This document shows, piece after piece, positions 9,467 through 59,353 of a stretch of 64,000 nucleotides of DNA. Position numbers and translations under genes: made by a program. How positions within the stretch are numbered: the stretch's first letter is position 1; the number at the start of each line of letters is the position of its first letter. The notes beneath the pieces are model-generated. The model did no database searches, was not told where the DNA came from, and worked only from the letters and a program-made list of their open reading frames with translations. Source of the DNA: Polyangiaceae bacterium (lineage in GTDB: Bacteria > Myxococcota_A > Polyangia > Polyangiales > Polyangiaceae); NCBI GenBank assembly GCA_023150915.1, contig JAKLKA010000001.1:1-64000 (forward strand). Direction: 5' to 3'.

Positions 9467-10302
9467 CCGAACCGCCCCGTGATGTAGTCCTCGGTCTTCT
9501 TCTCGCTCGGCCGCGTGAAGATCACGTCCGTGCGGTCGTATTCCACCAGCTCACCCAGGTAGAAGAACGCGGTGAAATCGGCCACTCGAGCGGCCTGCTG
9601 CATGTTGTGGGTGACGATCACGATGGTATAGCGCTCGCGCAGCTCGTGAATCAGCTCTTCGACCCGAGCCGTGGCGATGGGGTCGAGTGCCGAGCACGGC
9701 TCGTCCATCAATAGCACTTCGGGCTCGAGCGCCAGGGAACGGGCGATGCACAGCCTCTGCTGCTGGCCGCCGCTCAGGCTGGTTCCGGAGCGACTGAGCA
9801 CGTCTTTGACCTCGTCCCAGAGCGCCACCTGGCGCAGCGCGCGCTCGACCAGCTCTTCCGTGTCCTTGGGGCGAAGGCCGTTCAGCTTGAGCCCCGCCAG
9901 CACGTTCTCGCGGATGGTCATCGTCGGGAACGGATTGGGCTTCTGGAACACCATGCCCACTCGCCGGCGCACCCGGACCGGGTCGACGTCGGGGGCGTAG
10001 ATGTCCTGAAGGTCGAGCAACACCTTGCCTGCCACGCGGGCACCGCTGACCACCTCGTGCATGCGGTTCAGGCAGCGGATGAACGTGGACTTCCCGCAAC
10101 CTGAAGGCCCGATGATCGCGGTGACGGTGGTGGACTCGACGGGCAGGGTGATGCCCTTCAAGACCTCGGTCTTGCCGAAGTGCGCTCTGAGCGCCTCGGC
10201 GCGCATCTTCGGTCGGTCCGGTGCGGCGCTTGGCCGGGCGGGTGTCCGAGCGGATTCGCGCGTGGCTTCGCTGGTGCGGGCGAGAGCAAGGGACTGGATC
10301 AT
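9463..10302 (-). CDS. pstB: Phosphate ABC transporter ATP-binding protein PstB
   Basis: 279 residues from ATG 10302. It carries Walker [11 protein letters not shown]-loop FQKPNPFP typical of PstB, signature LSGGQQQR, Walker B VLLMDEP and the H-loop VTHNM. The N-terminal 35 residues before the ABC fold are longer than in E. coli and low in complexity. It energises phosphate import with PstA and PstC. Start overlaps the end of pstA by four bases and its end overlaps the start of phoU by four bases, so expression is tightly coupled. Confidence 0.97.
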
Positions 10303-11144
10303 CGGGACCTCACACGGTGGCGGACCAGGACTCGGGCGGCGACGTTCAAGATGAGCACCATCCCGATCAGCACCAGCGCCGCAGCCCAGGCTTTCTGGTG
10401 CCAGTCGTCGTAGGGCGACACGGCATAGGTGTAGATCTGCACCGGCAGCGAGGCGGTGGGCTGCGCCAGGCCCGTGGGCCAGAAAGCGTTGTTGAACGCG
10501 GTGAACAGCAGCGGGGCGGTCTCGCCCGCGACCCGGGCAATGGCCAGCATGATGCCGGTGGCGATGCCCGGTGCGGCGGTGCGCAGCACCACGCTGAGCG
10601 TGGCCCGCCACTTGGGCACGCCCAGGCCCAGCGCTGCTTCCCGCAGCGATTCGGGGACCAGTCGCAAGAGCTCTTCGGTGGTGCGCGTCACCGTCGGGAG
10701 CATCAACACCGCCAGCGCCACGCCGCCGGCATAGGCCGAGAAGCTCTTGGTGCGGAGCACGATCAGCGTGTAGACGAAGATGCCAATCGTGATGCTGGGC
10801 ACACCCGACATCACGTCGGCCGAGAAGCGCACCAGCTTGGCGAAGCGGTGCTGGCCGAACTCGGCCAGGTACACGCCGGCCAGCACCCCGGGAGGAATGC
10901 CGAACAGGCAGGCAAGCCCTACCAGCTCGAGCGTGCCCAAGAGCGCGTTGGCCATGCCGCCGCCCGCTTCGCCCACCGGCTTGGGAAGCTCGGTGAAGAA
11001 CGCCCAGTCGAGGCCGCCGATCCCCCGTGAGGTGACGTAGTACAGCACCAGGCCGAGCGGGATCAGCGCGGCCCCAGTGGCCAAGAGGCAGAGCCCTCGC
11101 ACCGCGGCGTCGACCAGCTTCCGCTGTGAATACCGCTCTTTCAT
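10299..11144 (-). CDS. pstA: Phosphate ABC transporter permease PstA
   Basis: 281 residues with six predicted membrane segments and the EAA-loop region ([20 protein letters not shown]) that contacts PstB. I take the ATG at 11142-11144, which forms an ATGA overlap with the stop of pstC; a longer frame upstream is not needed. Forms the inner-membrane channel with PstC. Confidence 0.95.
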
Positions 11145-42321: not shown

Positions 42322-42495
42322 GGCGACCGGCGAGCTTAGAGGCGGCTCTGGCAAAGGGCAAACGGAGTCAGCTCGAATTGGCAGAACGGCTGACTGTGCG
42401 CTGGGGCGCGACGCTTCTTTGAAGCTTACGATCGCGTCGGAGTTGGGTCCCAAGCGCGCGAGGGAGCGAGCGCGCTTCGCCGGGACGCGACTCGA

Positions 42496-43887
42496 TCACT
42501 GGACGTCGAGCTCGCCGAGCATGCCGCCTTCGGCGTGCTCGAGGATGTGGCAGTGGTACATCCACTTCCCGGGTTCGTCGAAGCGCGCCGTGAGGTCCAT
42601 GGACTCGTGCGCCTTCACGATGATGGTGTCCTTGTTCTTCAGCGTGCCCGTATCGCCCTGACGCTGGAAGAAGAAGCCATGGAGATGGAACGGGTGATCC
42701 ATGTCGCTCTCGTTCTTCACGCCCATGGTGCGGATGCTGCCGTTCGCGGCCAGGACCGGGGGCACGTCAGGGTACGCCTGCCCGTTGATGGTGAAGACGA
42801 CCTCTCCCTTTGCGTCGAGCTTCTCGCCGAGCAGCACCGGGATGTCGGCTGCGACCGCCGGTAGCTTCTCCACCTCCGGGAAGGCCGACGGGAGCGTTCG
42901 ACCTGGCAGCGCGGCATCGGCTCCCAAGCGCACGGTGGCCAGCGCTTCGGGCGCTGCGGCCACGGCGCCGTGTCCGCGCGAGTAGGGATCGTTCCAGAGC
43001 GTGAGGGTCGCCCCGGGCTCGCCGTTCGGGATGAGCACCACGTCGTAGCGCTCTCCGGGGGCCATGAGCAGGGTCTCCGTGTCCCAGGGCTGGCCGATCA
43101 GCCCACCGTCGGTCCCGATGACGTGGAAGGTGTGCCCTTCGAGCCGCAGGTTGAAGAATCGCCCGTTCGCGACGTTGACCAGGCGCAGGCGCTCGAGCGC
43201 GCCGCTCTGCATGGGGATCTCCGGGCCCGAAACGCCGTTCACCAGCAGCACGTTGCCTTCGCGCCCCATCATCTTCGACTCGTCGTCCAGGAGCTCGGGG
43301 AACGTGCCGTCGGCGTTCACGCGCACGTCGTCGAGCGCCAACACGGTTTCGTGATCGACGCTGGGCTCGCCGGCACCACGCACCAAGATCGCACCGTACA
43401 GGCCCTTCTCGACTTGAACGTCCGAGCGCATGTGCGGATGGAACCAGAAGAGCCCCGCGTCCTTCAGCGCGAACGAATACTCGAAGCCCTGACCCGGCTC
43501 GACGGGCGCCTGCATCAAGTGCGTGCCATCCATCGTGGCCGGCACCCGCACGCCGTGCCAGTGAATCGTCGTCGCCTCGGGGAGGTCGTTCTGGAAGTGC
43601 ACGACGAGTTGATCGCCCGCCTTGGCTTCGAGCAGCGGTCCGGGCACGCTGCCCTCGTAGGTCCAAACCTCGGAGGGCTTCGCGCCCGGGTACTTCTTGG
43701 TCGAGGTCTTTGCTCGCATCGACACCTCGAGCACGCCCGGGTCGGCGCTCTCGTCGGGCAGACCCGGCAGGGCAGGCAGGGCCGGAGGCGCCGGCGTTTC
43801 AGTGGCGTCCGCACCGTTGCCGGAGCACCCGGCCACCAGCGGAAAGGCGAATCCGAGAGCGGTGAGGGCGAGGTGACGAGGCTTCAC
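42496..43887 (-). CDS. Multicopper oxidase (lipoprotein)
   Basis: 463 residues from the GTG at 43887 (AGAGG before it). Signal ends LVAGC. Three cupredoxin domains. Copper ligands are complete: HWHG and FWFHPH in the first domain, HPFHLHG and HCHILEH in the last, with a Met after the last His (HAEGGM) as the type 1 axial ligand. Resembles CueO/CopA periplasmic oxidases that turn Cu(I) into less toxic Cu(II). It lies in the copper island, 67 bases after the cyclase gene, with an operator copy in that gap. Confidence 0.93.
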   Translation of the reverse strand: MKPRHLALTALGFAFPLVAGCSGNGADATETPAPPALPALPGLPDESADPGVLEVSMRAKTSTKKYPGAKPSEVWTYEGSVPGPLLEAKAGDQLVVHFQNDLPEATTIHWHGVRVPATMDGTHLMQAPVEPGQGFEYSFALKDAGLFWFHPHMRSDVQVEKGLYGAILVRGAGEPSVDHETVLALDDVRVNADGTFPELLDDESKMMGREGNVLLVNGVSGPEIPMQSGALERLRLVNVANGRFFNLRLEGHTFHVIGTDGGLIGQPWDTETLLMAPGERYDVVLIPNGEPGATLTLWNDPYSRGHGAVAAAPEALATVRLGADAALPGRTLPSAFPEVEKLPAVAADIPVLLGEKLDAKGEVVFTINGQAYPDVPPVLAANGSIRTMGVKNESDMDHPFHLHGFFFQRQGDTGTLKNKDTIIVKAHESMDLTARFDEPGKWMYHCHILEHAEGGMLGELDVQ

Positions 43888-43899
43888 GTTCCGACCTCT

Positions 43900-43915
43900 A
43901 GCACGCGGATCGCCA
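43900..43915 (-). promoter_or_regulatory. Possible sigma-54 promoter of the multicopper oxidase
   Basis: TGGCGATCCGCGTGCT on the minus strand has correct GG/GC spacing but lacks the CACG core, and it lies immediately next to the operator (43923-43939), which is very close for an enhancer. It would give a leader of about 2 bases. Confidence 0.35.
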
Positions 43916-43922
43916 CCAGTCT

Positions 43923-43939
43923 GTGACGGCGCGGGTCAC
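43923..43939. promoter_or_regulatory. GTGAC-N7-GTCAC operator before the multicopper oxidase
   Basis: A perfect 5-bp arm palindrome, GTGAC GGCGCGG GTCAC, in the 67-base gap between the cyclase and the oxidase. It is one of eight copies in the 43.9-56.4 kb region. Confidence 0.6.
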
Positions 43940-43954
43940 GCGAACCGAGCCCGC

Positions 43955-44590
43955 TCACACGAAGCTCTCCGGGGCTGCCGCGAAAGCGTCTCGGCATTTG
44001 GCGGAGCAAAACCGGATGGTCCTGCCGTCGTGCTCGAGCCACCACGCGGAGCCGGGCGGCAGGTGCATCCGGCAGACCGGATCGAGGTCGCGCTCGGCGG
44101 AGCGCGGGCCATCGTCGAGCTCGAACAGCTCGACGGGCAGGAGCACGTTTCTCAGCTTCGTCTCCCCGAGAGGCACGGCGCGCCAGCGCCCCCTCGCCAG
44201 GGCGTCGCGCAGCGCGGCCGTGCACAGCGTCTGCCCCGGGCGGGCGTGCGCTGCGACGCGCGCAGCGACGTTGACGGTCGCGCCGAAGACGTCTCCGTCT
44301 CGGGACGCCACATGACCAAAGTGGACGCCCGCGCGCACTCCGGGGAAATCCGGCCGTGCCTCGACCGCAGCGACGAGACCCAGCACGGTCGCGAGAGCAT
44401 CGTCCGGGCTGCTGCCAGCCAGCATGACGGCGTCGCCGATCCGCTTGACGAGCCGGGTGTCGCCAACGAGGCAGCTCTGCGCCATCGAATAGAACGCGCC
44501 GGCCACGTCCGCGGCGTCCTCGTCGCCATGCACCTCGGTCAGGGCGGTGAACCCCGCGAGATCTGCGAATGCGACGGCGAGCTCGGCCAT
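43955..44590 (-). CDS. Class III nucleotide cyclase fused to a YHS metal domain
   Basis: 211 residues from ATG 44590. Residues 1-155 are a class III adenylate/guanylate cyclase catalytic domain: metal Asp in FADLAGFT and GDAVM, and the transition-state Asn and Arg in TVNVAAR. Residues about 168-211 are a YHS domain (DPVCRMHLPPGS, RFCSAKCRDAF), a Cys-containing module found in copper ATPases and metal proteins. No membrane segment. The fusion suggests a cyclase whose activity reports cytoplasmic metal; whether it makes cAMP or cGMP is open. A longer start (GTG 44746) exists but would put the operator at 44640 inside the gene. Confidence 0.82.
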   Translation of the reverse strand: MAELAVAFADLAGFTALTEVHGDEDAADVAGAFYSMAQSCLVGDTRLVKRIGDAVMLAGSSPDDALATVLGLVAAVEARPDFPGVRAGVHFGHVASRDGDVFGATVNVAARVAAHARPGQTLCTAALRDALARGRWRAVPLGETKLRNVLLPVELFELDDGPRSAERDLDPVCRMHLPPGSAWWLEHDGRTIRFCSAKCRDAFAAAPESFV

Positions 44591-44639
44591 GGCCACATGC
44601 TCCGATTTTCGCTCGGCGGATGGAAGCGGTCGGGAACGT

Positions 44640-44656
44640 GTGACCGCGGTGATCAC
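44640..44656. promoter_or_regulatory. GTGAC-N7-ATCAC operator before the cyclase gene
   Basis: GTGAC CGCGGTG ATCAC, one mismatch to the shared palindrome. Longer flanks also pair (AACGTG on the left, CACGTT on the right). It lies 50 bases before the ATG of the cyclase. No good -24/-12 element was found between. Confidence 0.5.
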
Positions 44657-44877
44657 GTTCAGGTGGAAACCTGCGGGGGCGCGCGCCCGGCACGCCTCGT
44701 GCTTGGCTGCGGCTGCGCTCACGGCGCGGAAAGGAGAGCGTTTCACGATGCGAAGCTGGAAGCTACGCCCGGTCGCACACTGCGAAGAAGGGCATCCACC
44801 CCGGTCCCGAGCACGACGTTAAACGGCTCCGCGGGCCAGCAGGGGGGGCCGCGAAGGGGGCTCGGCGCTGGGGCGAG

Positions 44878-45615
44878 CTACCGGGCGGGCACGAGGCGTC
44901 GGGAGCGTGCCAGGATCTCCTCCGCGGCGGCCGCGTCTTCGCCTTCGATGGTGACAGCGAAGCCGCTGCCCGTTGAGGTGACGCGCGCGGAGACACCCTT
45001 GGGGACCAGCGGGCAGTCGGCCATTTCCGGTGCCACGTGCCCCAAGGCCGAGTTGCGGGCGATGTGGCAGTCGACCACCCGCTGTAGCCACTCGGCCGTC
45101 ATGCCCTCGACGGCTCGGAAGGTGACGATGGCGCCCCGGACGCTCGTCGACGGGTCGCGGACGCCGGCGCTCCTTTTCAACTCCTCGACGCTCGCGATGT
45201 CTTCGACGCGGCCGAAGGGGCTCGTGTCTCGGTCGTCGCCAGCAATGCCTCGGCACGACTCGGCCTCAGCTTGGCGCAGGGCGGCAGAAGCTGCGCGATG
45301 GTCCGCAGCGTGGCGGCGGTGCTCTGCCGCCCGTCGCGCGTGCGACGCGGTCGGGTTCCTCACCGACGTCCAGCACGCGCCGGTCTCGAGTATGGCGCTG
45401 GCGCGCTGCCGTGACCCGCCGCAACGCACGACAGCTTCGCTGGCTTTCGGGTCGTACTCGGCGGCGTGCGCGGCGCCCCTCTGGTCGTGCTCGTTGGCTC
45501 GAGCCTCGTGGCGCGGTGCGCTCATGTCATGTGGGCTCGCTCCGGGCGTCGCTGCCGCGCAGCCCAACGCGACCACGGATAGCGCGAAGGTGAGTTTTTC
45601 CGGGTGCTGGAGCAT
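44878..45615 (-). CDS. His-rich periplasmic lipoprotein of the copper island
   Basis: 245 residues from ATG 45615 (GGAGGAAG before it). Lipobox VVALGC, then a His/Ala/Asp-rich stretch (HDMSAPRHEARANEHDQ) likely to bind metal, a region with paired Cys (VVRCGGS, ETGACW), a charged helix with many His, and a C-terminal alpha/beta domain (CHIARNSALGHV, ARVTSTGSGFAVTIEG). No known family. Sigma-54 promoter and operator upstream place it in the metal regulon. Confidence 0.7.
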   Translation of the reverse strand: MLQHPEKLTFALSVVALGCAAATPGASPHDMSAPRHEARANEHDQRGAAHAAEYDPKASEAVVRCGGSRQRASAILETGACWTSVRNPTASHARRAAEHRRHAADHRAASAALRQAEAESCRGIAGDDRDTSPFGRVEDIASVEELKRSAGVRDPSTSVRGAIVTFRAVEGMTAEWLQRVVDCHIARNSALGHVAPEMADCPLVPKGVSARVTSTGSGFAVTIEGEDAAAAEEILARSRRLVPAR

Positions 45616-45648
45616 GGTTCTTCCTCCAGTGAATACTGCGCGGAACGC

Positions 45649-45664
45649 TGCATGAGGCGTGCCC
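45649..45664 (-). promoter_or_regulatory. Sigma-54 promoter of the His-rich lipoprotein
   Basis: GGGCACGCCTCATGCA on the minus strand: full GGCACG and TGCA blocks with correct spacing. Predicted +1 near 45638, leaving a 22-base leader with a good ribosome site. Operator 45716-45732 is about 55 bases further upstream. Confidence 0.7.
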
Positions 45665-45715
45665 GGTGCGGCCGCGCCGATTCTGGCGACTGGACTCGCC
45701 ATTCGAGGGCGCGGT

Positions 45716-45732
45716 GTGACGTCTCAAGTCAC
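45716..45732. promoter_or_regulatory. GTGAC-N7-GTCAC operator before the His-rich lipoprotein
   Basis: Perfect palindrome GTGAC GTCTCAA GTCAC. It overlaps the last codons of the upstream gene, so it sits at a protein-coding end. Confidence 0.65.
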
Positions 45733-46194
45733 AGAGCGGTCAACTCGGCCGTCCGAGATACCCAGAGCACGTAGGTTGCTCAACAGTCGGGTGAGGCACA
45801 CGTCCTCGCACTCGTCGAGCGCGTTGGCGTAGTCCGTTCGGTGCCGCACTTCGATGACTAGTTCTACCTCTCCGGGAGCGTCTGCTGTCGCGTAGTGCAA
45901 CGCATGGTCGAAGGGCCGGATCGAGATCCGTGTCCTCCACTCGGGTCGTGGCAGCGCAGCTTGCGCCAGAGCTCCGAGGTCGACCCAGATTGTCTGGCAC
46001 TTGGTGCATCCGGGGCTGAGCATGGGCCCGGCGTGACGGCCGACGAGGAATACGTCGTAGCCGATGGCGAGCAGTCCGTGAGCACTCGGAACCTGCGCCC
46101 GACGCACCTCGAACATGACGCCGTGTCGGGTGGCGAGGGCACGCAGGCGCGCTCGCCGCAGGTCGTTGCTCTCGCCGGGTGAATCCGAGTTCAT
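45724..46194 (-). CDS. Unknown protein controlled by a sigma-54 promoter
   Basis: 156 residues from ATG 46194 (GGAGG right before it). No signal peptide and no membrane segment. A CTKC motif in the middle (SPGCTKCQTIWVDL) and a Cys pair near the end (DECEDVC) could hold a metal. Nothing resembles a family that I know. Position, promoter and operators make it a member of the metal regulon. Confidence 0.6.
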   Translation of the reverse strand: MNSDSPGESNDLRRARLRALATRHGVMFEVRRAQVPSAHGLLAIGYDVFLVGRHAGPMLSPGCTKCQTIWVDLGALAQAALPRPEWRTRISIRPFDHALHYATADAPGEVELVIEVRHRTDYANALDECEDVCLTRLLSNLRALGISDGRVDRSVT

Positions 46195-46209
46195 GCCTCC
46201 AGTTCACGC

Positions 46210-46225
46210 GGCAATTCCCGTACCA
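46210..46225 (-). promoter_or_regulatory. Sigma-54 promoter of the unknown gene 45724-46194
   Basis: TGGTACGGGAATTGCC on the minus strand, consensus -24 and -12 blocks with correct spacing. The -12 base is 17 bases before the ATG, so the leader is about 5 bases. Tandem operators lie about 150 bases upstream (46375-46410). Confidence 0.65.
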
Positions 46226-46374
46226 CCGAGCCGAATGGCAGAGCTCACGACAGAGGGGCGGTGCGATGTCGGTGCCGCCCGCGCGCGTCGACTCGGTCGA
46301 CACCGCAATCGCACTGGGCGGTGGCGAACCGGATTCGCTTGGCCACGTGCTCGAGGCGCTCCATTGCGCCGGAC

Positions 46375-46410
46375 GTGACCGGCTCGGTCAGACGTGACGG
46401 GTCTCGTCAC
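46375..46410. promoter_or_regulatory. Tandem GTGAC-N7-GTCA(C/G) operators
   Basis: GTGAC CGGCTCG GTCAG (46375-46391) and GTGAC GGGTCTC GTCAC (46394-46410), 19 bases apart and thus on nearly the same helix face. They lie in the 361-base gap between cusA and the 45724 gene. Apart from these and the promoter, I see nothing in that gap. Confidence 0.65.
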
Positions 46411-46555
46411 GGTCAGCATTCGACTCGCGGGGGTCACTCGCGTGGTGCGGCGAGCGTCCGCCGTTCGGGAGGTCCCGTGTGGGCGGGACGAAAGCGGTGA
46501 AACCAGTCGGACGCTCGCCGCGACGCCAGTGAAGCAACGCCCGTGCCCGCGCCGT

Positions 46556-49500
46556 TCACCCTGCGGGCGCCGGTACCGGTAGCTGCTTCTTTCGCCAGAG
46601 GAAATACACTGCTGGGTAGACCAGGAGCTCCATCAAGAACGACGTGGCCAGGCCGCCGATCATCGGCGCTGCGATGCGCTTCATGAGATCGGAGCCGGTG
46701 CCCGTGGACCACATGATGGGCAAGAGGCCGATCATTGCGGCGCAGACCGTCATTGCCTTGGGGCGCACGCGTTTCACAGCACCATGGACGATGGCTTCGA
46801 CCAGCTCTTCGCGCGTCTGGAGCTGCCCTCTCTTCTTCGCTTCGTCGAAGGAGAGGTCCAGGAAGAGCAGCATGAACACCCCCGTCTCGGCGTCGAGCCC
46901 CATGAGCGCGATCATACCCACCCAGACCGCGATCGAGATGTTGTAGCCGAGCGCCCAGAGCAGCCACACGGCTCCGATGGCCGAGAACGGCACGGCCAGC
47001 ATGACGATCAGCGTCTTGACCGTGGACTTGGTGTTCAAGTAGAGGAGCGCGAAGATCAGGACCAGGGTGATCGGCACGATCAGCTTCAGCCGCTCGGTGA
47101 CGCGGAGCATGTTCTCGTACTGGCCGCTCCAGACCATGTTGTAGCCGGTGGGCAGGGTCACGCCCGAGGTCACGGCCTTCTTGGCCGCCGTGACGTAGCC
47201 GCCCACGTCGTACTTCGAGGTATCGAAGTCCACGTAGACGTAGCCCGCCAGCAGCCCGTTCTCGTCGCGGATCATCGCGGGGCCGTGCGCCAGCACGACG
47301 TCGGCGATCTCGCTCATGGGGATTTGGCCATCGCCGCTCGGCAGCGGCAGGAGCACTCGCTGCAGGCTGCTGAGATCCTCACGGAAGTCGCGGGCGTAGC
47401 GTACGTTGATCCCGTAGCGTTCGCGACCCTCGACCGTGATCGACTGGTTGTCGCCGCCCACCGCGGTCATGACCATCATGTTTGCGTCGTCCACGCTCAG
47501 GCCGTAGCGGGCGAGCTGCTGGCGCTTGAGCACGAAGTCGACGAAGTAGCCCCCGGCCACGCGCTCGGCGTACACACTGCGCGTTCCGGGCAGCTTCTTG
47601 ATCACCCCCTCGGTCTCCTGCGCGATGCGCTCGATGGTGGCGAGGTCGGCGCCGCTGACCTTGATGCCGATCGGCGTGCGAATGCCGGTCGAGAGCATGT
47701 CGAGGCGGCCCTTGATGGGCATGGTCCAGGCGTTCGAGATCCCAGGCAGCTGGAGCGCCTGGTTCAGCTCGTTCTCCAGGTCTTCCTGCGAGATGCGGTC
47801 ACGCCAGAAGGGACGCAGCGCGGGCTTCAGCCACTCGGGCGACCAGCTCGAGTACCAGCGCGGTCGCTCCCGCCACTCACGCTCCGGCTTGAGGATGATG
47901 GTGGTTTCCATCATGGTGAACGGAGCTGGATCCGTCGACGTGTTGGCGCGCCCAGCCTTGCCGAACACGCGCTCGATTTCCGGGAAGCGCATCAAGATCT
48001 TGTCTTGGACCTGGAGCGCCTTCTGCGCCTCGGCCACCGACATGCCGGGCTCGACCGCCGATGGCATGTAGAGGATCGTCCCCTCGCGCAGCGGCGGCAT
48101 GAACTCGGAGCCCAGCCGGAAATAGACGGGGAGGGTGGCGAGGATCGCCACGATGCTGAGCGCGATGGTCGCGCGCGGATGCGCGAGCACCAGCCGGCAG
48201 GGCCGCTCGTACAGCCGGTGAAGCGCTCTCGAGATGGGGTGCTTCTCTTCGGAATGGTACGTGCCGACGAGCACGCGGGTCGCGATCCACGCCAAGAATC
48301 GTGGGCGGAACTTGAACTCGTCGATGCGGGCGAAGAGCATGCGCATCGCGGGGTCGAGGGTGATGGCCAGGAACGCCGCGATGGCCATCGCCAGGTTCTT
48401 CGAATACGCGAGTGGCCGGAACAAGCGCCCTTCCTGGTCGACGAGCGTGAACACCGGCATGAAGGCGACAGCGATCACCAACAGCGAAAAGAACACACCC
48501 GGCCCGACCTCGAGCAGCGCTTCGAGGCGCACGTGGTGGAAGTCGCCCTTCTTCCCGTCCTGGATCCAGTGGTGGATCTTGTTGTATGCGTTCTCGACCT
48601 CGACGATGGCCCCGTCCACCAGCACGCCGATGGAGATGGCGATGCCGGCCAGCGACATCAGGTTGGCGTTGAGGCCCATGGCGTACATCGGGATGAAGGC
48701 CAGGGCCACCGACACCGGGATGGTGACGATCGGGATGATGGCCGACGGAATGTGCCAGAGGAAGATCAGGATGATGATCGAGACCACGATGATCTCCTCG
48801 ATCAACTTCTCCTTCACGGTGTCGATGGCGGCGTTGATCAGCTCCGAGCGGTCGTAGGTCGTCACGACCTCGACGCCCTTCGGCAGTGAAGGCTTCAGCT
48901 CCTCGAGCTTGGCCTTCACGCGCTCGATCACGTTCAGCGCGTTCTCCCCGGAGCGCATCACGACGATGCCACCCACCACGTCGCCTTGCCCGTCCAGGTC
49001 GGCGATGCCCCGGCGAAGCTCGGGGCCGAGCGCGACTCGCGCCACGTCCTTGACCAGCACCGGCGTCCCGCCCTCGGAACGCAGCACCAGGTTCTCGATG
49101 TCCTGGGTGCTCTTCACGTAACCCCGGCCGCGCACCATGTATTCGCGACCGCTGATCTCGACCAACCTCCCTCCGACGTCGTCGTTGCCGGTCTTGACTG
49201 CCCCGATCACTGTGGCGAGGGGCAGCTTGAAAGCGGCGAGGGCATTCGGGTCTACCGTGACCTGGTATTGACGAACCTGGCCGCCCACGGTGGCCACCTC
49301 GGAAACGCCTGCCACGCTCTGCAGGGCGTAACGCAGGTACCAATCCTGATACGACCTCAGCTCGTCCGAGGAGTGCTGGCCCGTCTTGTCGACCAGCGCA
49401 TATTGGAAGACCCATCCCACGCTGGTCGCGTCTGGCCCGAGCTCGGTCCGGACGTCGCGCGGGAGCTGTGGCGTGATCTTGGAGAGATACTCGAGCACGC

Positions 49501-49822
49501 GTGTGCGCGCCCAATACATGTCCGTGCCGTCTTCGAAGATCACGTATACGTAACTGAAACCGAAGTCCGAGAAGCCGCGGATGGCCTTGACCTTGGGCGC
49601 GCCGAGGAGCGATGTGATGATCGGATAGGTGACCTGATCCTCGATGATGTCGGGGCTCCGGTCCCAGCGCGAATAGACGATCACCTGTGTGTCCGAGAGA
49701 TCGGGCAGCGCGTCGAGCGGGATGTTGCGCATCGACCAGAGCGAGCCGATCAGCATCATGATGGTCGCCGCGATGACCAGGTATCGGCTCTCGGCCGAGA
49801 AGCGGATGATGGCTTTGATCAT
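46556..49822 (-). CDS. cusA: Copper/silver RND efflux pump, CusA type
   Basis: 1088 residues with 12 membrane helices and two large periplasmic loops. The three methionines that relay Cu(I)/Ag(I) in CusA are conserved: Met586 (ILYMPS), Met637 (APFTMMETT) and Met709 (RLDMLSTGI). Helix 4 reads GVLVDGAIVEVENAYNKI, so one Asp of the proton path is present. It drives metal out across the periplasm with CusB and CusC. It is the last gene of the five-gene operon, 19 bases after cusB. Confidence 0.95.
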   Translation of the reverse strand: MIKAIIRFSAESRYLVIAATIMMLIGSLWSMRNIPLDALPDLSDTQVIVYSRWDRSPDIIEDQVTYPIITSLLGAPKVKAIRGFSDFGFSYVYVIFEDGTDMYWARTRVLEYLSKITPQLPRDVRTELGPDATSVGWVFQYALVDKTGQHSSDELRSYQDWYLRYALQSVAGVSEVATVGGQVRQYQVTVDPNALAAFKLPLATVIGAVKTGNDDVGGRLVEISGREYMVRGRGYVKSTQDIENLVLRSEGGTPVLVKDVARVALGPELRRGIADLDGQGDVVGGIVVMRSGENALNVIERVKAKLEELKPSLPKGVEVVTTYDRSELINAAIDTVKEKLIEEIIVVSIIILIFLWHIPSAIIPIVTIPVSVALAFIPMYAMGLNANLMSLAGIAISIGVLVDGAIVEVENAYNKIHHWIQDGKKGDFHHVRLEALLEVGPGVFFSLLVIAVAFMPVFTLVDQEGRLFRPLAYSKNLAMAIAAFLAITLDPAMRMLFARIDEFKFRPRFLAWIATRVLVGTYHSEEKHPISRALHRLYERPCRLVLAHPRATIALSIVAILATLPVYFRLGSEFMPPLREGTILYMPSAVEPGMSVAEAQKALQVQDKILMRFPEIERVFGKAGRANTSTDPAPFTMMETTIILKPEREWRERPRWYSSWSPEWLKPALRPFWRDRISQEDLENELNQALQLPGISNAWTMPIKGRLDMLSTGIRTPIGIKVSGADLATIERIAQETEGVIKKLPGTRSVYAERVAGGYFVDFVLKRQQLARYGLSVDDANMMVMTAVGGDNQSITVEGRERYGINVRYARDFREDLSSLQRVLLPLPSGDGQIPMSEIADVVLAHGPAMIRDENGLLAGYVYVDFDTSKYDVGGYVTAAKKAVTSGVTLPTGYNMVWSGQYENMLRVTERLKLIVPITLVLIFALLYLNTKSTVKTLIVMLAVPFSAIGAVWLLWALGYNISIAVWVGMIALMGLDAETGVFMLLFLDLSFDEAKKRGQLQTREELVEAIVHGAVKRVRPKAMTVCAAMIGLLPIMWSTGTGSDLMKRIAAPMIGGLATSFLMELLVYPAVYFLWRKKQLPVPAPAG

Positions 49823-49841
49823 GGGGTTCGCCTCCGCCCCG

Positions 49842-51608
49842 TCACGGCTTCTTCGCCTCGGTGGGCGTCAGGAACATGCCGCACTTGGGGCAGCGCGACG
49901 GGTGGTCGTCCGTGACCTCGGGGTGCATCGGGCAGGCGTACTGGGGAGCGGGCACTGCGCTCGGAGCGGGTGCCGGTGACGGAGCGGCGCTGGTCGGAGC
50001 GACTTTTCCGGGAACGTGCGGCAGCGCGCTTCCCGACGGTGCGGCGGAGGCGGGCGGTGCTCCGGAGCTGCCCGGCGCAGGCGCAGGCTTGGCCGAGCCG
50101 GCGGTGAGCGCCGCGAGCGACGCGCGCAGGCGCGACTCCGAATCGACCAGGAAGTTGGCGCGCACGACCACCTTCTCACCCTCGGAGAGCCCGGAGATGA
50201 CCTCTACCTGGGCGCCGTCCGAGTCGCCGAGCGCGATTTCTCGAGGCTGGAGCATGCCCGCTCCGAGCGCGACGAACGCGATTTTCTTCGTCCCCGAGTC
50301 GATCACCGCATCCTCTGGAATGCGCAGCCCTTCGCGCTCGGCGCCCTCGAGCGTCACCTGGCCGAACATCTCCGGCTTGAGCTCACCGCTGGGGTTGGCG
50401 AATTCCAGGCGAAGCTTGACCGTGCGGGTCTTGGGATCGAGCACCGGATCGACGAATGCCGCGGTACCTTCGAACGTGCGGTTCGGGTATGCCTTGAGCG
50501 TCAGCTTGGCCGGCATGCCCACGCGGACGCGGTGAAGGTCGGTCTCGTAGATGTCCGCCAGCACCCAGACGCGTGACAGGTCGACGATCTCGTAGGGCAT
50601 GGCGCCCTCATCGAGCTTCATGCCGCCGACCACCTCTTTCTTGGTGACCACGCCGGCAATCGGCGAGTGGAAGGTGAGCGACCTGAGGCCCTTCCCGCCT
50701 TCTTCGATCTTCTTGATGGCCGACTCAGGCACGTCCCAAAGCTCGAGCTTGCGGCGTGACGCAGCCACCAGCCCGCTGGTGTCGACCGGATACTCGGACG
50801 ACGCTGCCAGGGACTTCTGGGTCCTGAGGGCGATGCGGTACTCTTCCTGTGCTGCGAGCAACTCCGGGCTGTAGCCGGAGAACAACGGTGCGCCTCGCCG
50901 CACCGGTTTGCCGACGAAGTCGACGTACACGCGCTCGACGTACACCGCCACTTTCACGTTGACGTGCCGCACGCGGCGCTCGTCCATGGCGACACGGCCG
51001 ACCGTCTCCCAGGTGCCTTTCACCTTGCCGCGGGTGACGTCAGCGGTCTTGAGACCAATCAGCTGCTGGCGAGCGGGATCGATCTCGACGGTCGCGAGAC
51101 CGTCGACCTGAGATCCTCCGCTCACTTCGTCTTCGTAGACCGGGATGAAGTCCATCCCCATGTCGTCCTTGCGTGGCGTGGGCGAGGTCTGTCGCGGATC
51201 CATCGGCGAGCGATAGAACTTGACCTTGCGTTCGCCCGGGCCCGCGGTGGACGCCCCGGGCTTCCCGCCGACCTTCACCAGCTTCATGCCGCAGATCGGG
51301 CATTCGCCCGGGTGATCTTGCACGATGGTCGGATGCATCGGGCACTGGTAGAGAGCCTTCTCCGCGTCGCCGGCTGCGCCTGGGACTCTGGTTCGCGACG
51401 CGATCAGATATCCGCCGCCGCCGGCCGCTGCAGCCGCGACGACAGCCGTGAGGAGCAGCGCGAGCCAGCCGAATCTTCCCGGCTCGCGCCGCACGGCGGG
51501 CGACGGCGGCTCGGGCGGAGGCGACGGCTCGGGGCTCGCGGGGGGGGCCTCGAGCGTGGCGAGATCCGGCGAGCCGGGGTCCGGCGGCGGCGCGGGCTCG
51601 CTGCTCAT
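49842..51608 (-). CDS. cusB: Membrane-fusion protein CusB type with two heavy-metal-binding modules
   Basis: 588 residues. A Pro-rich cytoplasmic tail and one membrane helix (about 46-70) come first. A first metal module YQCPMHPTIVQDHPGECP follows, then a Met-rich linker (MDPRQTSPTP, DDMGMDF), the adaptor core (VYVERVYVDFVGKPV, barrel, LRLEFANPSGELKPEMFG), a Pro/Ala linker and a second module YACPMHPEVTDDHPSRCP at the very C-terminus. Two such modules in one adaptor is unusual; they may load Cu or Ag onto the pump. Overlaps the outer-membrane gene by four bases. Confidence 0.93.
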   Translation of the reverse strand: MSSEPAPPPDPGSPDLATLEAPPASPEPSPPPEPPSPAVRREPGRFGWLALLLTAVVAAAAAGGGGYLIASRTRVPGAAGDAEKALYQCPMHPTIVQDHPGECPICGMKLVKVGGKPGASTAGPGERKVKFYRSPMDPRQTSPTPRKDDMGMDFIPVYEDEVSGGSQVDGLATVEIDPARQQLIGLKTADVTRGKVKGTWETVGRVAMDERRVRHVNVKVAVYVERVYVDFVGKPVRRGAPLFSGYSPELLAAQEEYRIALRTQKSLAASSEYPVDTSGLVAASRRKLELWDVPESAIKKIEEGGKGLRSLTFHSPIAGVVTKKEVVGGMKLDEGAMPYEIVDLSRVWVLADIYETDLHRVRVGMPAKLTLKAYPNRTFEGTAAFVDPVLDPKTRTVKLRLEFANPSGELKPEMFGQVTLEGAEREGLRIPEDAVIDSGTKKIAFVALGAGMLQPREIALGDSDGAQVEVISGLSEGEKVVVRANFLVDSESRLRASLAALTAGSAKPAPAPGSSGAPPASAAPSGSALPHVPGKVAPTSAAPSPAPAPSAVPAPQYACPMHPEVTDDHPSRCPKCGMFLTPTEAKKP

Positions 51609-53098
51609 CGTACCTCCGCGGAATTGGCGACGAACGGCAGGCGTCCCAGCGCCCGGTCCAGTCTGGCGCGGCGCCTCCCGAGCTCGGCGACGGCAGAGTG
51701 AAGCGAAAGCTCGACGTCGCGCAGGTTCTTCTCACCCTCCACCACCGCGAGGAAGCTGGTGCGGCCTGGGGCGAAATCGACTCGCGCGGCCGCCACCTGC
51801 GCCTTGGCGGCCGGGACCACCCGCTGTTCGATGATCTTGACGACGCGGATGGTCTCCAGCACTTGCTGGCGCGCGACGCTCACCCGAACGCGGATACGGT
51901 CCACTTCCCTCGCGGCCTGAGCGCGCGCTTCGGCGCTGCGGGCGCCCGCCTCCTCGAGCATTCCTCCGCGCCGCCCGCGCTGAAGGGGAATCGGCGCGGC
52001 GATGCCCAGCATCAGCCGCGCATCCGGCATGACCATCGTGTTGTACGACGCCATCAGGGTGAAATCCGGGTAGTACTCGCGCTCGGCATACTGGGCGAGC
52101 GACTCTGCCGCGCGCTCTCGCGCCCGCAAACCGCGCAGCTCCGGGCTCGAAGAGAGCGCGATGCGCCAGAGCTCCGGTTCGGAGGCAGGCGGTTCCAGAT
52201 CCGGGCTCGACGAGACATCCGGCGGCGGCAGGGCCTCGGTCGGAGCACGGTGCAGAAGGCCGTTCAGCACGGCTGCGATGGATGTGCGTTCGGCGTGCAG
52301 TGTCGCGCTTTGCTGCACCAGGCGTGACAGCTCGACCTCTGCCTGCAACGGGTCCTGGAGCGATGCCCGGCCCGTCGAGAGCTGGACTTCGGCGGCGGAC
52401 TTCAGCTCGCGTAACAGGTGCTGGTGGTAGTCGTTCACCTCGAGCGAGCGGTGGACCAGGTAGTAGTCGTCGAACGACAGCGAGGCCTCGAGCGCCAAAT
52501 CGAGCTCGGTCACGCGAACGTCGTCGCGGGCGGCCTCGCTCTCCGCCTCGGCGCTGGCGCCCAGGCTTGCGCGCTTGCCGGGCCAAGGGAGCCGCTGGCT
52601 GACCTGCACGGTCTGACCAAACGAGCCGCTGCCGATGGTCATGGGCGCGAAGCCATAGGCCACTTCCGGATCATCGAGCGCGGAGACCTGCGACCGCCGG
52701 GCCCGCGCCGCGCGCAATGCCTGCCGGCGCGCATCCACCTCGGGGTTTCGCCGAACCACGGCGCGGATCAGCGCCGTGCGCGACAGCACGCTCCGACTTG
52801 CCGAAAGCGCTGCCGGGGCGGGACCTTCCGCCCGAGCCGCAGCTTCGGTGCCCGACTCGACAAGAGGCTCCGGCGGTCGCCTGGGTCGAGCGGGCTCCGC
52901 CAGATCGGCGGCGCCGACCGCCGGTGGCTCCGGCTCAGCAGCCGACCGGCTCGGCACGCACGCCGCAACGCCGAGCGTCGCCGCCACCAAAGCGGACAGG
53001 CGAGCCACTCGTGGACTTACGAAGCGGCAGATTGAAGGTCGCGCGTGGTCCAAGACGAGTCCCCAGCTCGGCTCGTGCAGAAAGCGCGCCACCAGCAT
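51605..53098 (-). CDS. cusC: TolC-family outer-membrane channel, CusC type
   Basis: 497 residues from ATG 53098, chosen for the GGGGGAG site five bases before it (a GTG at 53131 is also open). Lipoprotein signal with a long first segment ending LGVAAC. The two coiled-coil hairpin repeats of the TolC family are visible (LALEASLSFDDYYLVH, AARVDFAPGRTSFLAVVEGEKN). It forms the outer-membrane exit duct for CusBA. Ends overlapping cusB. Confidence 0.9.
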   Translation of the reverse strand: MLVARFLHEPSWGLVLDHARPSICRFVSPRVARLSALVAATLGVAACVPSRSAAEPEPPAVGAADLAEPARPRRPPEPLVESGTEAAARAEGPAPAALSASRSVLSRTALIRAVVRRNPEVDARRQALRAARARRSQVSALDDPEVAYGFAPMTIGSGSFGQTVQVSQRLPWPGKRASLGASAEAESEAARDDVRVTELDLALEASLSFDDYYLVHRSLEVNDYHQHLLRELKSAAEVQLSTGRASLQDPLQAEVELSRLVQQSATLHAERTSIAAVLNGLLHRAPTEALPPPDVSSSPDLEPPASEPELWRIALSSSPELRGLRARERAAESLAQYAEREYYPDFTLMASYNTMVMPDARLMLGIAAPIPLQRGRRGGMLEEAGARSAEARAQAAREVDRIRVRVSVARQQVLETIRVVKIIEQRVVPAAKAQVAAARVDFAPGRTSFLAVVEGEKNLRDVELSLHSAVAELGRRRARLDRALGRLPFVANSAEVR

Positions 53099-53134
53099 GA
53101 CGCTCCCCCGCACCGGCGCCGAGCCTGTCACGCA

Positions 53135-56457: not shown

Positions 56458-56473
56458 CGGCACGCGCGTTGCA
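56458..56473 (+). promoter_or_regulatory. Sigma-54 promoter of the kinase/regulator operon
   Basis: CGGCACGCGCGTTGCA matches the consensus TGGCACG-N4-TTGCA except at the first base. The -12 base is 21 bases before the ATG; predicted +1 near 56484, leader about 9 bases with GAGG. Confidence 0.75.
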
Positions 56474-56492
56474 CCCGGGAGCTGATGAGGCG

Positions 56493-57962
56493 ATGAGTCG
56501 AGCTCGAGGCACGCTGAGCGGAACTTCTGCGCGGCTGTCCGCCGCGTTCTTCGCCGTGCTCGCGCTGTTCGGTGCCGCACTTTGGATCGCGCTCTCGACG
56601 TTCGACCGCCTGGGCGCCGCCGAAGCGGAAGTGGCCGGGCTCGAGGACGCGAAGCACGCGGGTCATGCTGTAGCCGCGGCGATTCGCGAGCAGTACATCC
56701 ACCAGGCCCACACCATCATCAACTGGGATCGATCGCATCTCGGGCACTACGAGGACGCCGCCAAGAGCACGCGCAGCGCCACGCGGCAGCTTCACGAAAT
56801 GGCTCGCGGTGAGGCGCATCGCCAGCGAACGCTGGAGATTGCCCGCTTGGTCGCCGAGGTGGACGAAGCCTTCAAGGCCCGCGTGATCCCCGGCGTCGAC
56901 GCCAACGACAGGGAAGCCGTGCGCCGCGGACACGAAGCGACCGAGCGCCTGGTCGGTACCGTGGTGGCGAAGAGCGAAGGGTTGAATCGCGAGCTCGAAC
57001 GCTTCAGCATGGAGGCGCGCGAGCGTGAGCGGAGCATGCGTGAGCGGGCGCGCTGGGCGTTCATCGGCTGCTTCGTGCTGGCGATTGGCGTGGCCGGAGT
57101 CCTCGGCTTCGTGATGGTTCGCTCGATTCGCGGCCGCCTGGAACGGCTCGGGGCTGGAGCCACCAGCATTGCGAAGGGCGATCTGTCGACCCGTATCCGT
57201 CTGGAGGGGGACGACGAATTCAGCGATCTGGCCGACGCGTTCAACCAGATGGCCGCGGACCTCCGCAGTCATCAGGACGCGGCAGTGCGTTCGCAGAAGC
57301 TCGCGACGGTGGGCCAGATCGCCGCCGGGGTGGCCCACGAGATCAACAATCCGCTCGGCGTGATCCTCGGCTACCTGAAGCTCATGCGCAGGAACGCCGA
57401 CCTGACCCGCCTCGCCGGGGACGAGCTCCGCATCGTGGAGGACGAGGCCCACCAGTGCCAGCGCATCGTGCGCGAGTTGCTCGATCTGGCGCGCCCGCCC
57501 CAATTCGAGCGCACGCCGCTGAACCTGTTCGAGCTCGTCAAGGAGTCAGTCGACCGCTTGGGCGAGTCCGGAGCCGTCACCCAGGGCATCCAGGTCGAGT
57601 GCAGCGGTGCGCCTCTGGTGCGGGGCGACCCCGTACAGTTGCGCGAAGTCGTGGCCAACTTGCTCAATAACGCGCTCGAGGCCGGCAGCGAGCGCGTCGA
57701 GGTCCACGTCGCGGGTAACCAGAGCACGGTGTGCCTGGAGGTCAAGGACACCGGCACGGGCATGGATGGCGCGGCGCGCGAGCACGCTTTCGACCCGTTC
57801 TTCACCACCAAGCCTCGCGGCACGGGCCTCGGTCTGGCGATCTCGCAAGCCATCGTGCACGCTCACGGGGGCGCCATCGCCATCGATTCGGCGCTGGAAG
57901 ACGGCACCCGCGTTCGCGTCGAATTGCCGGTCGCTTCACGTTCGTTGGAGGCCGGCGCATGA
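56493..57962 (+). CDS. Membrane sensor histidine kinase, likely metal sensor
   Basis: 489 residues from ATG 56493 (GAGG five bases before). Two membrane helices (about 15-37 and 190-212) flank a helical periplasmic sensor with several His (KHAGHAVAAAIREQYIHQ, DRSHLGHYED). HAMP follows, then a HisKA with His282 in GVAHEINNPLG (NtrB/ZraS class) and HATPase (NLLNNALEAG, DTGTGMD, GTGLGLAI). The His cluster in the sensor suits Cu/Ag/Zn, which is inference. It overlaps the response regulator by four bases. Confidence 0.9.
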   Translation: MSRARGTLSGTSARLSAAFFAVLALFGAALWIALSTFDRLGAAEAEVAGLEDAKHAGHAVAAAIREQYIHQAHTIINWDRSHLGHYEDAAKSTRSATRQLHEMARGEAHRQRTLEIARLVAEVDEAFKARVIPGVDANDREAVRRGHEATERLVGTVVAKSEGLNRELERFSMEARERERSMRERARWAFIGCFVLAIGVAGVLGFVMVRSIRGRLERLGAGATSIAKGDLSTRIRLEGDDEFSDLADAFNQMAADLRSHQDAAVRSQKLATVGQIAAGVAHEINNPLGVILGYLKLMRRNADLTRLAGDELRIVEDEAHQCQRIVRELLDLARPPQFERTPLNLFELVKESVDRLGESGAVTQGIQVECSGAPLVRGDPVQLREVVANLLNNALEAGSERVEVHVAGNQSTVCLEVKDTGTGMDGAAREHAFDPFFTTKPRGTGLGLAISQAIVHAHGGAIAIDSALEDGTRVRVELPVASRSLEAGA

Positions 57963-59353
57963 GAAAGCCCCGGGTGCTCGTGGTCGACGACAAGGACAGC
58001 ATCTTGGGGCTGTTCGGCCGCATTCTGTCAGACAGATTCGAAGTGGCGACCGCCACCGATGGGCAGCGCGGGTTGGCGTTGGCGCTGAACGACGACTTCG
58101 ATGTGATCGTGTCCGACATCCGCATGCCGGGCGCCGACGGTTTCACCGTGCTGCGCGAGGTCAAGCGGGTGAAGCCAGAGGTCGAGGTGGTGTTGATGAC
58201 CGCCTTTGGCTCGGTAGAGAAGGCGGTCGAGGCGATGAAGGAGGGCGCGTACGACTACCTGACCAAGCCGTTCGATCCCGACGAAGCCTTGATTACCATC
58301 GAGCGCGCGGCCGAGCGAAAGCGGCTGCGCGAGCAGGCCCGTGACCTGAGCGCCGTCGTCGGCAACATCAGCCAGTTCGATCGACTCGTGGGCAAGAGCG
58401 CGGCGATGCAGCAGCTCTTCGAGCTGCTCGGGCGCGCCGCGAGCAGCGACGCAACGGTGCTCATCACCGGCGAGAGCGGCACTGGGAAAGAGCTCGCTGC
58501 CCGCGCCATTCACGCCGCAAGCTCAGGCCGAAGCGGGCGGTTCGTCGCAGTGAATTGCGGCGCCATCCCGGAGAACCTGATCGAGAGCGAGCTGTTCGGC
58601 CACGTGCGCGGAGCGTTCACCGGCGCGGTGGCCGATCGGCGCGGTCTGTTCGAAGAGGGCGACGCGGGGACGCTGCTCTTGGACGAAGTGGGTGAGCTTC
58701 CTCTGCCGATGCAGGTCAAGCTCACGCGTGTGCTTCAAGAGCACACGATCCGCCGTGTAGGCGAGTCGCAGGAGCGTCGGGTCAGCGCGCGCGTCGTCGC
58801 CGCCACCAACGTGGACCTGAAGGCCGCCGTTTCGGGCGGTCGCTTTCGCGAGGATCTGTTCTACCGATTGAACGTGTTCCCGGTGCGGCTGCCGGCCCTG
58901 CGTGAGCGGCGCGAAGACATCCCCGTGCTCGCCGCCCACTTCCTGGACCGGCACCGCGGGCGGTACGGCGGCCACGTGGAAGGGTTCAGCCCAGAGTCGC
59001 TCTCGGCGTTGGTGCGGTACGACTGGCCGGGCAACGTCCGCGAGCTGGAGAACGCTGTCGAGCGCGCCTTGGCGGTGGTCGATGGACCGCGCATCCCGCT
59101 CGAAGCGCTTCCGGAAGAGGTCGCATCCCAAGCGCGACCGCGGCTGGCCTCCGACCTCGGTCGGCTGACCTACCGTGAGGTAATCGACATCGCCAGGGAC
59201 CGGGTCTCGCGCGAATACCTGATCGCCTTGATGCGCGAGTTCAAGGGCAGCGTGACCCATGCGGCCGAGCGCGCGGGCATGGAGCGCGAGACCTTGCATC
59301 GCCTGCTCAAGCGCTACGGGCTTCGCTCGGACGAGTTCAAGCCGGGGCGCTGA
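57959..59353 (+). CDS. Sigma-54-dependent response regulator of the metal regulon
   Basis: 464 residues: receiver with Asp53 (IVSDIRMPG) and TKPFD, AAA+ domain with [15 protein letters not shown] and LLLDEVGE, and a Fis-type HTH ([20 protein letters not shown]). It is the NtrC-type partner of the kinase (ATGA overlap). The palindromes in this region have the two-fold form expected for dimeric enhancer-binding proteins, so this protein is the best candidate to bind GTGAC-N7-GTCAC; that link is inferred. Confidence 0.92.

Follow-up and report, generated by a model that had tools for sequence, protein, structure and literature searches.

The gene studied here lies in a 64-kb stretch of DNA from a member of the Polyangiaceae (the window) and encodes a class III adenylyl cyclase whose C-terminus carries a YHS domain (AC-YHS; Table 1). 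The open reading frame is complete from ATG to stop, and a GGAG is present at 44603-44600, 9 nt 5' of the ATG. A GTG at 44746 is open in the same frame as an alternative start; the homologue alignments begin near the ATG instead. Pfam places both domains in one frame, Guanylate_cyc with 40.3 bits (E 3.3e-10; curated cut-off 21.9 bits) and YHS with 32.7 bits (E 7.3e-8; curated cut-off 30.3 bits), and the motifs DPVCRMHLPPGS and CSAKCRD are both found in the protein. This confirms the cyclase-YHS architecture given in a preliminary description of the locus and rules out that the YHS segment belongs to another frame. The top match in NCBIfam was the cyclase part of LipJ (Rv1900c), with a score below the threshold.

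Table 1. The AC-YHS gene, its domains and its neighbours in the window
Feature	Coordinates	Strand	Remarks
Multicopper oxidase, CueO/CopA-like	42496..43887	minus	67 nt downstream of the AC-YHS gene
AC-YHS gene, class III adenylyl cyclase + C-terminal YHS/TRASH domain	43955..44590	minus	211 aa; ORF and Pfam
YHS domain, residues 170-210	43961..44083	minus	Pfam YHS; presumed metal ligands D170, C173, C195, C199
Cyclase homology domain, residues 3-147	44150..44584	minus	Pfam Guanylate_cyc; six catalytic residues; AlphaFold likeness to Rv1264
Unannotated neighbour, 274 aa, no Pfam family	44878..45702	minus	also found beside AC-YHS in relatives and beside the second copy
Unannotated neighbour, 156 aa, no Pfam family	45724..46194	minus	accompanies AC-YHS in several relatives
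CusA/CzcA-family heavy-metal RND pump	46556..49822	minus	TIGR00914, 1049.9 bits, cut-off 701
CusB-like membrane fusion protein, two heavy-metal-binding (HMBD) motifs	49842..51608	minus	
Outer-membrane efflux protein, OEP/CusC-like	51605..53131	minus	

Read along the minus strand, the order is outer-membrane factor, CusB-like protein, CusA-like pump, the 156-aa gene, the 274-aa gene, AC-YHS and multicopper oxidase. The copper cluster assumed in the preliminary description is real: the oxidase adjoins the cyclase on one side, and a CusCBA-like export operon spans 46556-53131. A scan of 42400-46700 for promoters and terminators gave nothing above chance, so the operon structure is deduced from strand and spacing only. 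In a relative from the same genus (L043) the oxidase, the pump operon and AC-YHS are also found together, with the oxidase convergent to AC-YHS; hence the linkage has outlived rearrangement. The 274-aa gene recurs next to AC-YHS in L028, L031, L034 and L043, the 156-aa gene in L028, L033, L045 and L056. Beyond the efflux operon, a HAMP histidine kinase and a sigma-54 response regulator are encoded as a pair on the plus strand (56469-59353), which possibly regulates the metal-efflux operon.

All six canonical adenylyl cyclase residues are present in AC-YHS: D10 and D53 for metal, K49 and D100 for adenine, N107 and R111 for the transition state (roles from class III cyclase knowledge and PMC4626032). 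The YHS domain contains the Asp-Cys-Cys-Cys set of presumed metal ligands. These ten positions were invariant in 15 of 15 homologues from the same GTDB family, which come from 12 of its 108 genomes. In the comparison with the second genomic copy dN was 0.056 and dS 0.46, and with the same-genus relative 0.17 and 0.91 (NG86). As dN is well under dS in both cases, the gene is, judged from these substitution rates, under purifying selection. It could be argued that the cyclase domain is inactive and the protein only a metal-binding protein or scaffold, since the window protein is known from sequence alone; with the six catalytic residues intact and invariant in the family and a low dN/dS, we regard this as extremely unlikely.

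By sequence, Rv1264 is the solved structure closest to AC-YHS (E 5.3e-24). An AlphaFold model of AC-YHS, built with 15 aligned homologues, had a mean pLDDT of 87.5 and a pTM of 0.73, with low confidence in the linker (162-166). It superimposed on Rv1264 (1y11) over 164 columns with an rmsd of 1.6 and also matched Ma1120 and Rv1900c. Around D100-R111 AC-YHS aligns with Rv1264 without gaps, which serves as an informal gauge of its dimerisation arm. The cyclase domains of Rv1264 (PDB 1y10/1y11) and Rv1900c/LipJ (1ybt/1ybu), which we take to be class IIIc cyclases with a short dimerisation arm, are thus among the nearest to AC-YHS in both sequence and fold. Unlike AC-YHS, neither has a YHS domain; Rv1264 has a regulatory domain at its N-terminus, and in Rv1900c the cyclase is joined to a hydrolase domain. 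The YHS module itself belongs to the same small metal-binding domain family as the TRASH/YHS domains of copper ATPases and ribosomal protein L24e, but there it is located on a transporter or a ribosomal protein, whereas in AC-YHS it is located on a second-messenger enzyme.

The preliminary description held that no example of this arrangement had been described. This was wrong, because Linder (PLoS One 2015, PMC4626032) purified and characterised an enzyme with this architecture from Mycobacterium phlei (MpAC, EID14989.1) and named it a probable copper sensor, leaving its physiological role to speculation. That work described 26 AC-YHS sequences, most of them mycobacterial, with rhizobia among the other sources (PMC4626032). 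With Mn2+, 1-10 uM Cu2+ raised the activity of the full-length enzyme about sixfold; with Mg2+, activity was undetectable and appeared upon addition of 1-10 uM Cu2+ (PMC4626032). The catalytic domain alone was not stimulated by copper, and none of Zn, Fe(II), Fe(III), Cr, Co or Ni gave rise to activity (PMC4626032). Activity was abolished by EDTA quenching after exposure to copper, which makes oxidation of cysteines unlikely; direct binding of copper by the YHS domain and its ligand residues was presumed, without mutational proof (PMC4626032). In the papers covered by our literature search there was no second one on the cyclase-YHS pair, and no assay of a myxobacterial member was found.

Like the M. 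phlei enzyme, the window protein combines one class III cyclase domain with a YHS domain at the C-terminus; both are soluble and have the six catalytic residues and the D/C/C/C ligand set. Their lengths are similar (211 aa here, 233 aa in M. phlei). The spacing between the second and third ligand is 21 residues instead of 22, as compared by the residue numbers given in PMC4626032. The two proteins also differ in host phylum and in that the window gene adjoins a multicopper oxidase gene and a CusCBA-like operon. Thus the window gene is an ordinary member of the described AC-YHS family in a suggestive setting. Most probably its product is an adenylyl cyclase of class III that responds to copper, as in the family characterised by Linder (2015), and by analogy with the M. 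phlei homologue it would be activated by copper. The mechanism guessed in the preliminary description was close to the published one (PMC4626032). The soluble metal-coupled cyclase proposed there is well supported by homology (PMC4626032), by the conserved residues and by the linkage to metal export. The cGMP output that it had offered as an alternative is disfavoured: K49 and D100 are adenine-specifying residues, so that the product should be cAMP rather than cGMP.

A search for the same domain pair in other genomes (scan of 84,980 species genomes) matched at least 80 loci. By frame reading, most of these have an intact YHS domain, and the rest are cyclases without YHS or apparently decayed copies. 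AC-YHS has at least 66 members in six phyla (Actinomycetota, Chloroflexota, Acidobacteriota, Bacteroidota, Myxococcota and Pseudomonadota). Among the genomes drawn from the phylum of the window, 7 of 377 contained AC-YHS, 6 of the 7 belonging to its family. Matches were also found in 40 plasmid records, mainly of Rhizobium and Mycolicibacterium. In a tree of the cyclase domains, 65 of the 66 AC-YHS rows among the matches listed fell into one group with modest support (93/92), which also includes Rv1264, on a long branch, and L101, whose YHS is decayed; L114, likewise on a long branch, was placed outside. The tree included mycobacterial AC-YHS proteins other than that of M. phlei. The window protein appears to share ancestry with these, and the sequences are consistent with essentially one fusion of cyclase and YHS that then spread. 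Related cyclase domains from the same scan, those of a mycobacterial pepB/dlaT/ilvE locus and of Rhizobiales, differ from AC-YHS in having neither a YHS domain nor metal genes nearby. The mycobacterial ones are presumably of the Rv2212 type.

Among the matches listed, D53, N107, R111, D170, C173 and C195 were present in 66 of 66 AC-YHS rows, C199 in 65 and K49 and D100 in 63. D10 was found in all 62 rows that include that part of the protein. Its apparent loss in L077, L081, L092 and L097 is probably an artefact, as the protein start had been set at the tblastn match. In two Bacteroidota members, L060 (Mesonia, 10001-10651) and L086 (Segetibacter, 10001-10618), K49 is replaced by E and D100 by R or G, whereas the metal, transition-state and YHS residues are retained. 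Because of these substitutions they may not be specific for ATP and are possibly guanylyl cyclases.

To what extent AC-YHS genes lie near metal genes was assessed for 65 intact, non-redundant loci among the matches listed. A P1B metal ATPase, a heavy-metal RND pump or a multicopper oxidase was found within 8 kb at 26 of them, and at 24 of the 46 loci with flanks of at least 10 kb; the motif scan for P-type ATPases took in enzymes with DKTGTIT as well as DKTGTLT. At the other 39 of the 65 the available flank, often on a short contig, contained no such gene, so that the linkage is not universal. The genome of the window has about nine such metal genes in 8.0 Mb (five RND pumps over the cut-off, two P1B ATPases and two oxidases). 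As a rough background estimate, a stretch of 17 kb would contain one about 2% of the time. With the 8-kb criterion, 0 of 17 YHS-less cyclase relatives among the matches listed had a metal gene nearby, an imperfect control because 11 of the 17 represent one orthologous mycobacterial locus. These 17 are the rows treated as YHS-less in the cyclase-domain tree. The YHS-less group of 20 in the neighbourhood table includes three further matches, and these are the ones in it that do have such a metal gene nearby: L081, which keeps a remnant of YHS, and L102 and L106, which look frame-broken. None of the three is an ordinary YHS-less cyclase. Repressors of the BlaI/CopY type (Penicillinase_R) and ArsR-type regulators were also recurrent neighbours of AC-YHS.

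This linkage points to a role of AC-YHS in metal resistance. That the YHS domain is instead a structural or thiol-redox module, and the neighbourhood merely reflects a resistance island, would agree with the metal-free YHS domain in the crystal structure of toluene-4-hydroxylase (cited in PMC4626032), with the 39 loci lacking a metal gene nearby and with a gene order that is not kept, as in the convergent oxidase of L043. Yet cysteine oxidation is at odds with the EDTA result for the M. phlei enzyme (PMC4626032), the ligand set is kept across six phyla, and the linkage to metal genes persists despite rearrangement and with differing partners. We therefore consider a purely structural or redox function very unlikely.

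The ATPases near AC-YHS are of varying types (CPC, CPH, SPC and CPD), and therefore the sensed metal may differ between AC-YHS lineages. Often the ATPase close to a mycobacterial locus is of the SPC type (P1B-4) or the CPH type (P1B-3); hence copper is perhaps not the metal in all members. For the window protein, too, sensing of another metal (Ag(I), Zn(II), Co(II) or Cd(II)) or of metals generally might be considered: TIGR00914 spans both CusA (Cu/Ag) and CzcA (Co/Zn/Cd) pumps, the scores for the CusB and multicopper oxidase subfamilies are below the curated cut-offs, and the mycobacterial genes are found near ATPases of the SPC type, which is distinct from the copper CPC type. However, a multicopper oxidase adjoins the gene, CusB (NF007303) is the top adaptor family for the CusB-like protein, and Cu2+ elicited a response from the M. 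phlei homologue, whereas Zn, Fe, Cr, Co and Ni did not (PMC4626032), which makes a metal other than copper improbable here. In the Chloroflexota loci L044 (5213-8299) and L048, a copper ATPase near AC-YHS also bears a YHS domain; sensor and pump thus share a metal module there.

For the copper-responsive cyclase, the mechanism with the best support is as follows. Paired head to tail, two cyclase domains would make up the dimer in which MgATP is converted to cAMP. The YHS (TRASH-type) domain would bind a copper ion via D170, C173, C195 and C199, and the dimer would thereby be reoriented, leaving its inactive state for the active one and starting Mg-dependent cAMP production. Copper in the cytosol is expected to be Cu(I), whereas the M. 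phlei assay used Cu2+. One of the cNMP-binding proteins of the genome would in turn be the target of the cAMP, with metal resistance or general physiology adjusted as a result. An output through cAMP is plausible, since the genome has 21 matches to cNMP-binding domains, none of them inside the window. For the window protein, the response to copper, its selectivity among metals in vivo, the receptor on which cAMP acts and the eventual output are all inferred.

Copper-activated cyclases of the AC-YHS type have been known since 2015; what is added here is a genomic linkage that bears on their role. Found in the genome of the window and at loci of Actinomycetota, Chloroflexota, Acidobacteriota, Bacteroidota and Myxococcota, it makes the proposal of a role in metal defence concrete and testable, and we infer that AC-YHS is an arm of this defence. 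A more far-reaching interpretation is that AC-YHS proteins are dedicated second-messenger sensors of islands for resistance to copper or heavy metals in several phyla, in which cAMP (cGMP in the Bacteroidota lacking K and D) directly controls the adjoining efflux and oxidase genes via a CRP-type receptor. This we regard as possible but doubtful.

A paralogue with 89% identity to AC-YHS is present on another contig of the same genome (L028, G000:C212:60806-64511). Copies of both the 274-aa and the 156-aa gene lie beside it, with a relic of about 34 codons from the 3' end of cusA ahead of this block, and there is no multicopper oxidase near it in the stretch examined. This second locus is a duplicated block from which the pump was lost. 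The dN/dS between the two AC-YHS copies is about 0.12, and hence both appear to have been kept as functional proteins. The gammaproteobacterial AC-YHS copy L081 (10001-10609) sits among RND and oxidase genes, its last Cys ligand and its K/D substrate residues are altered, and it may be decaying.
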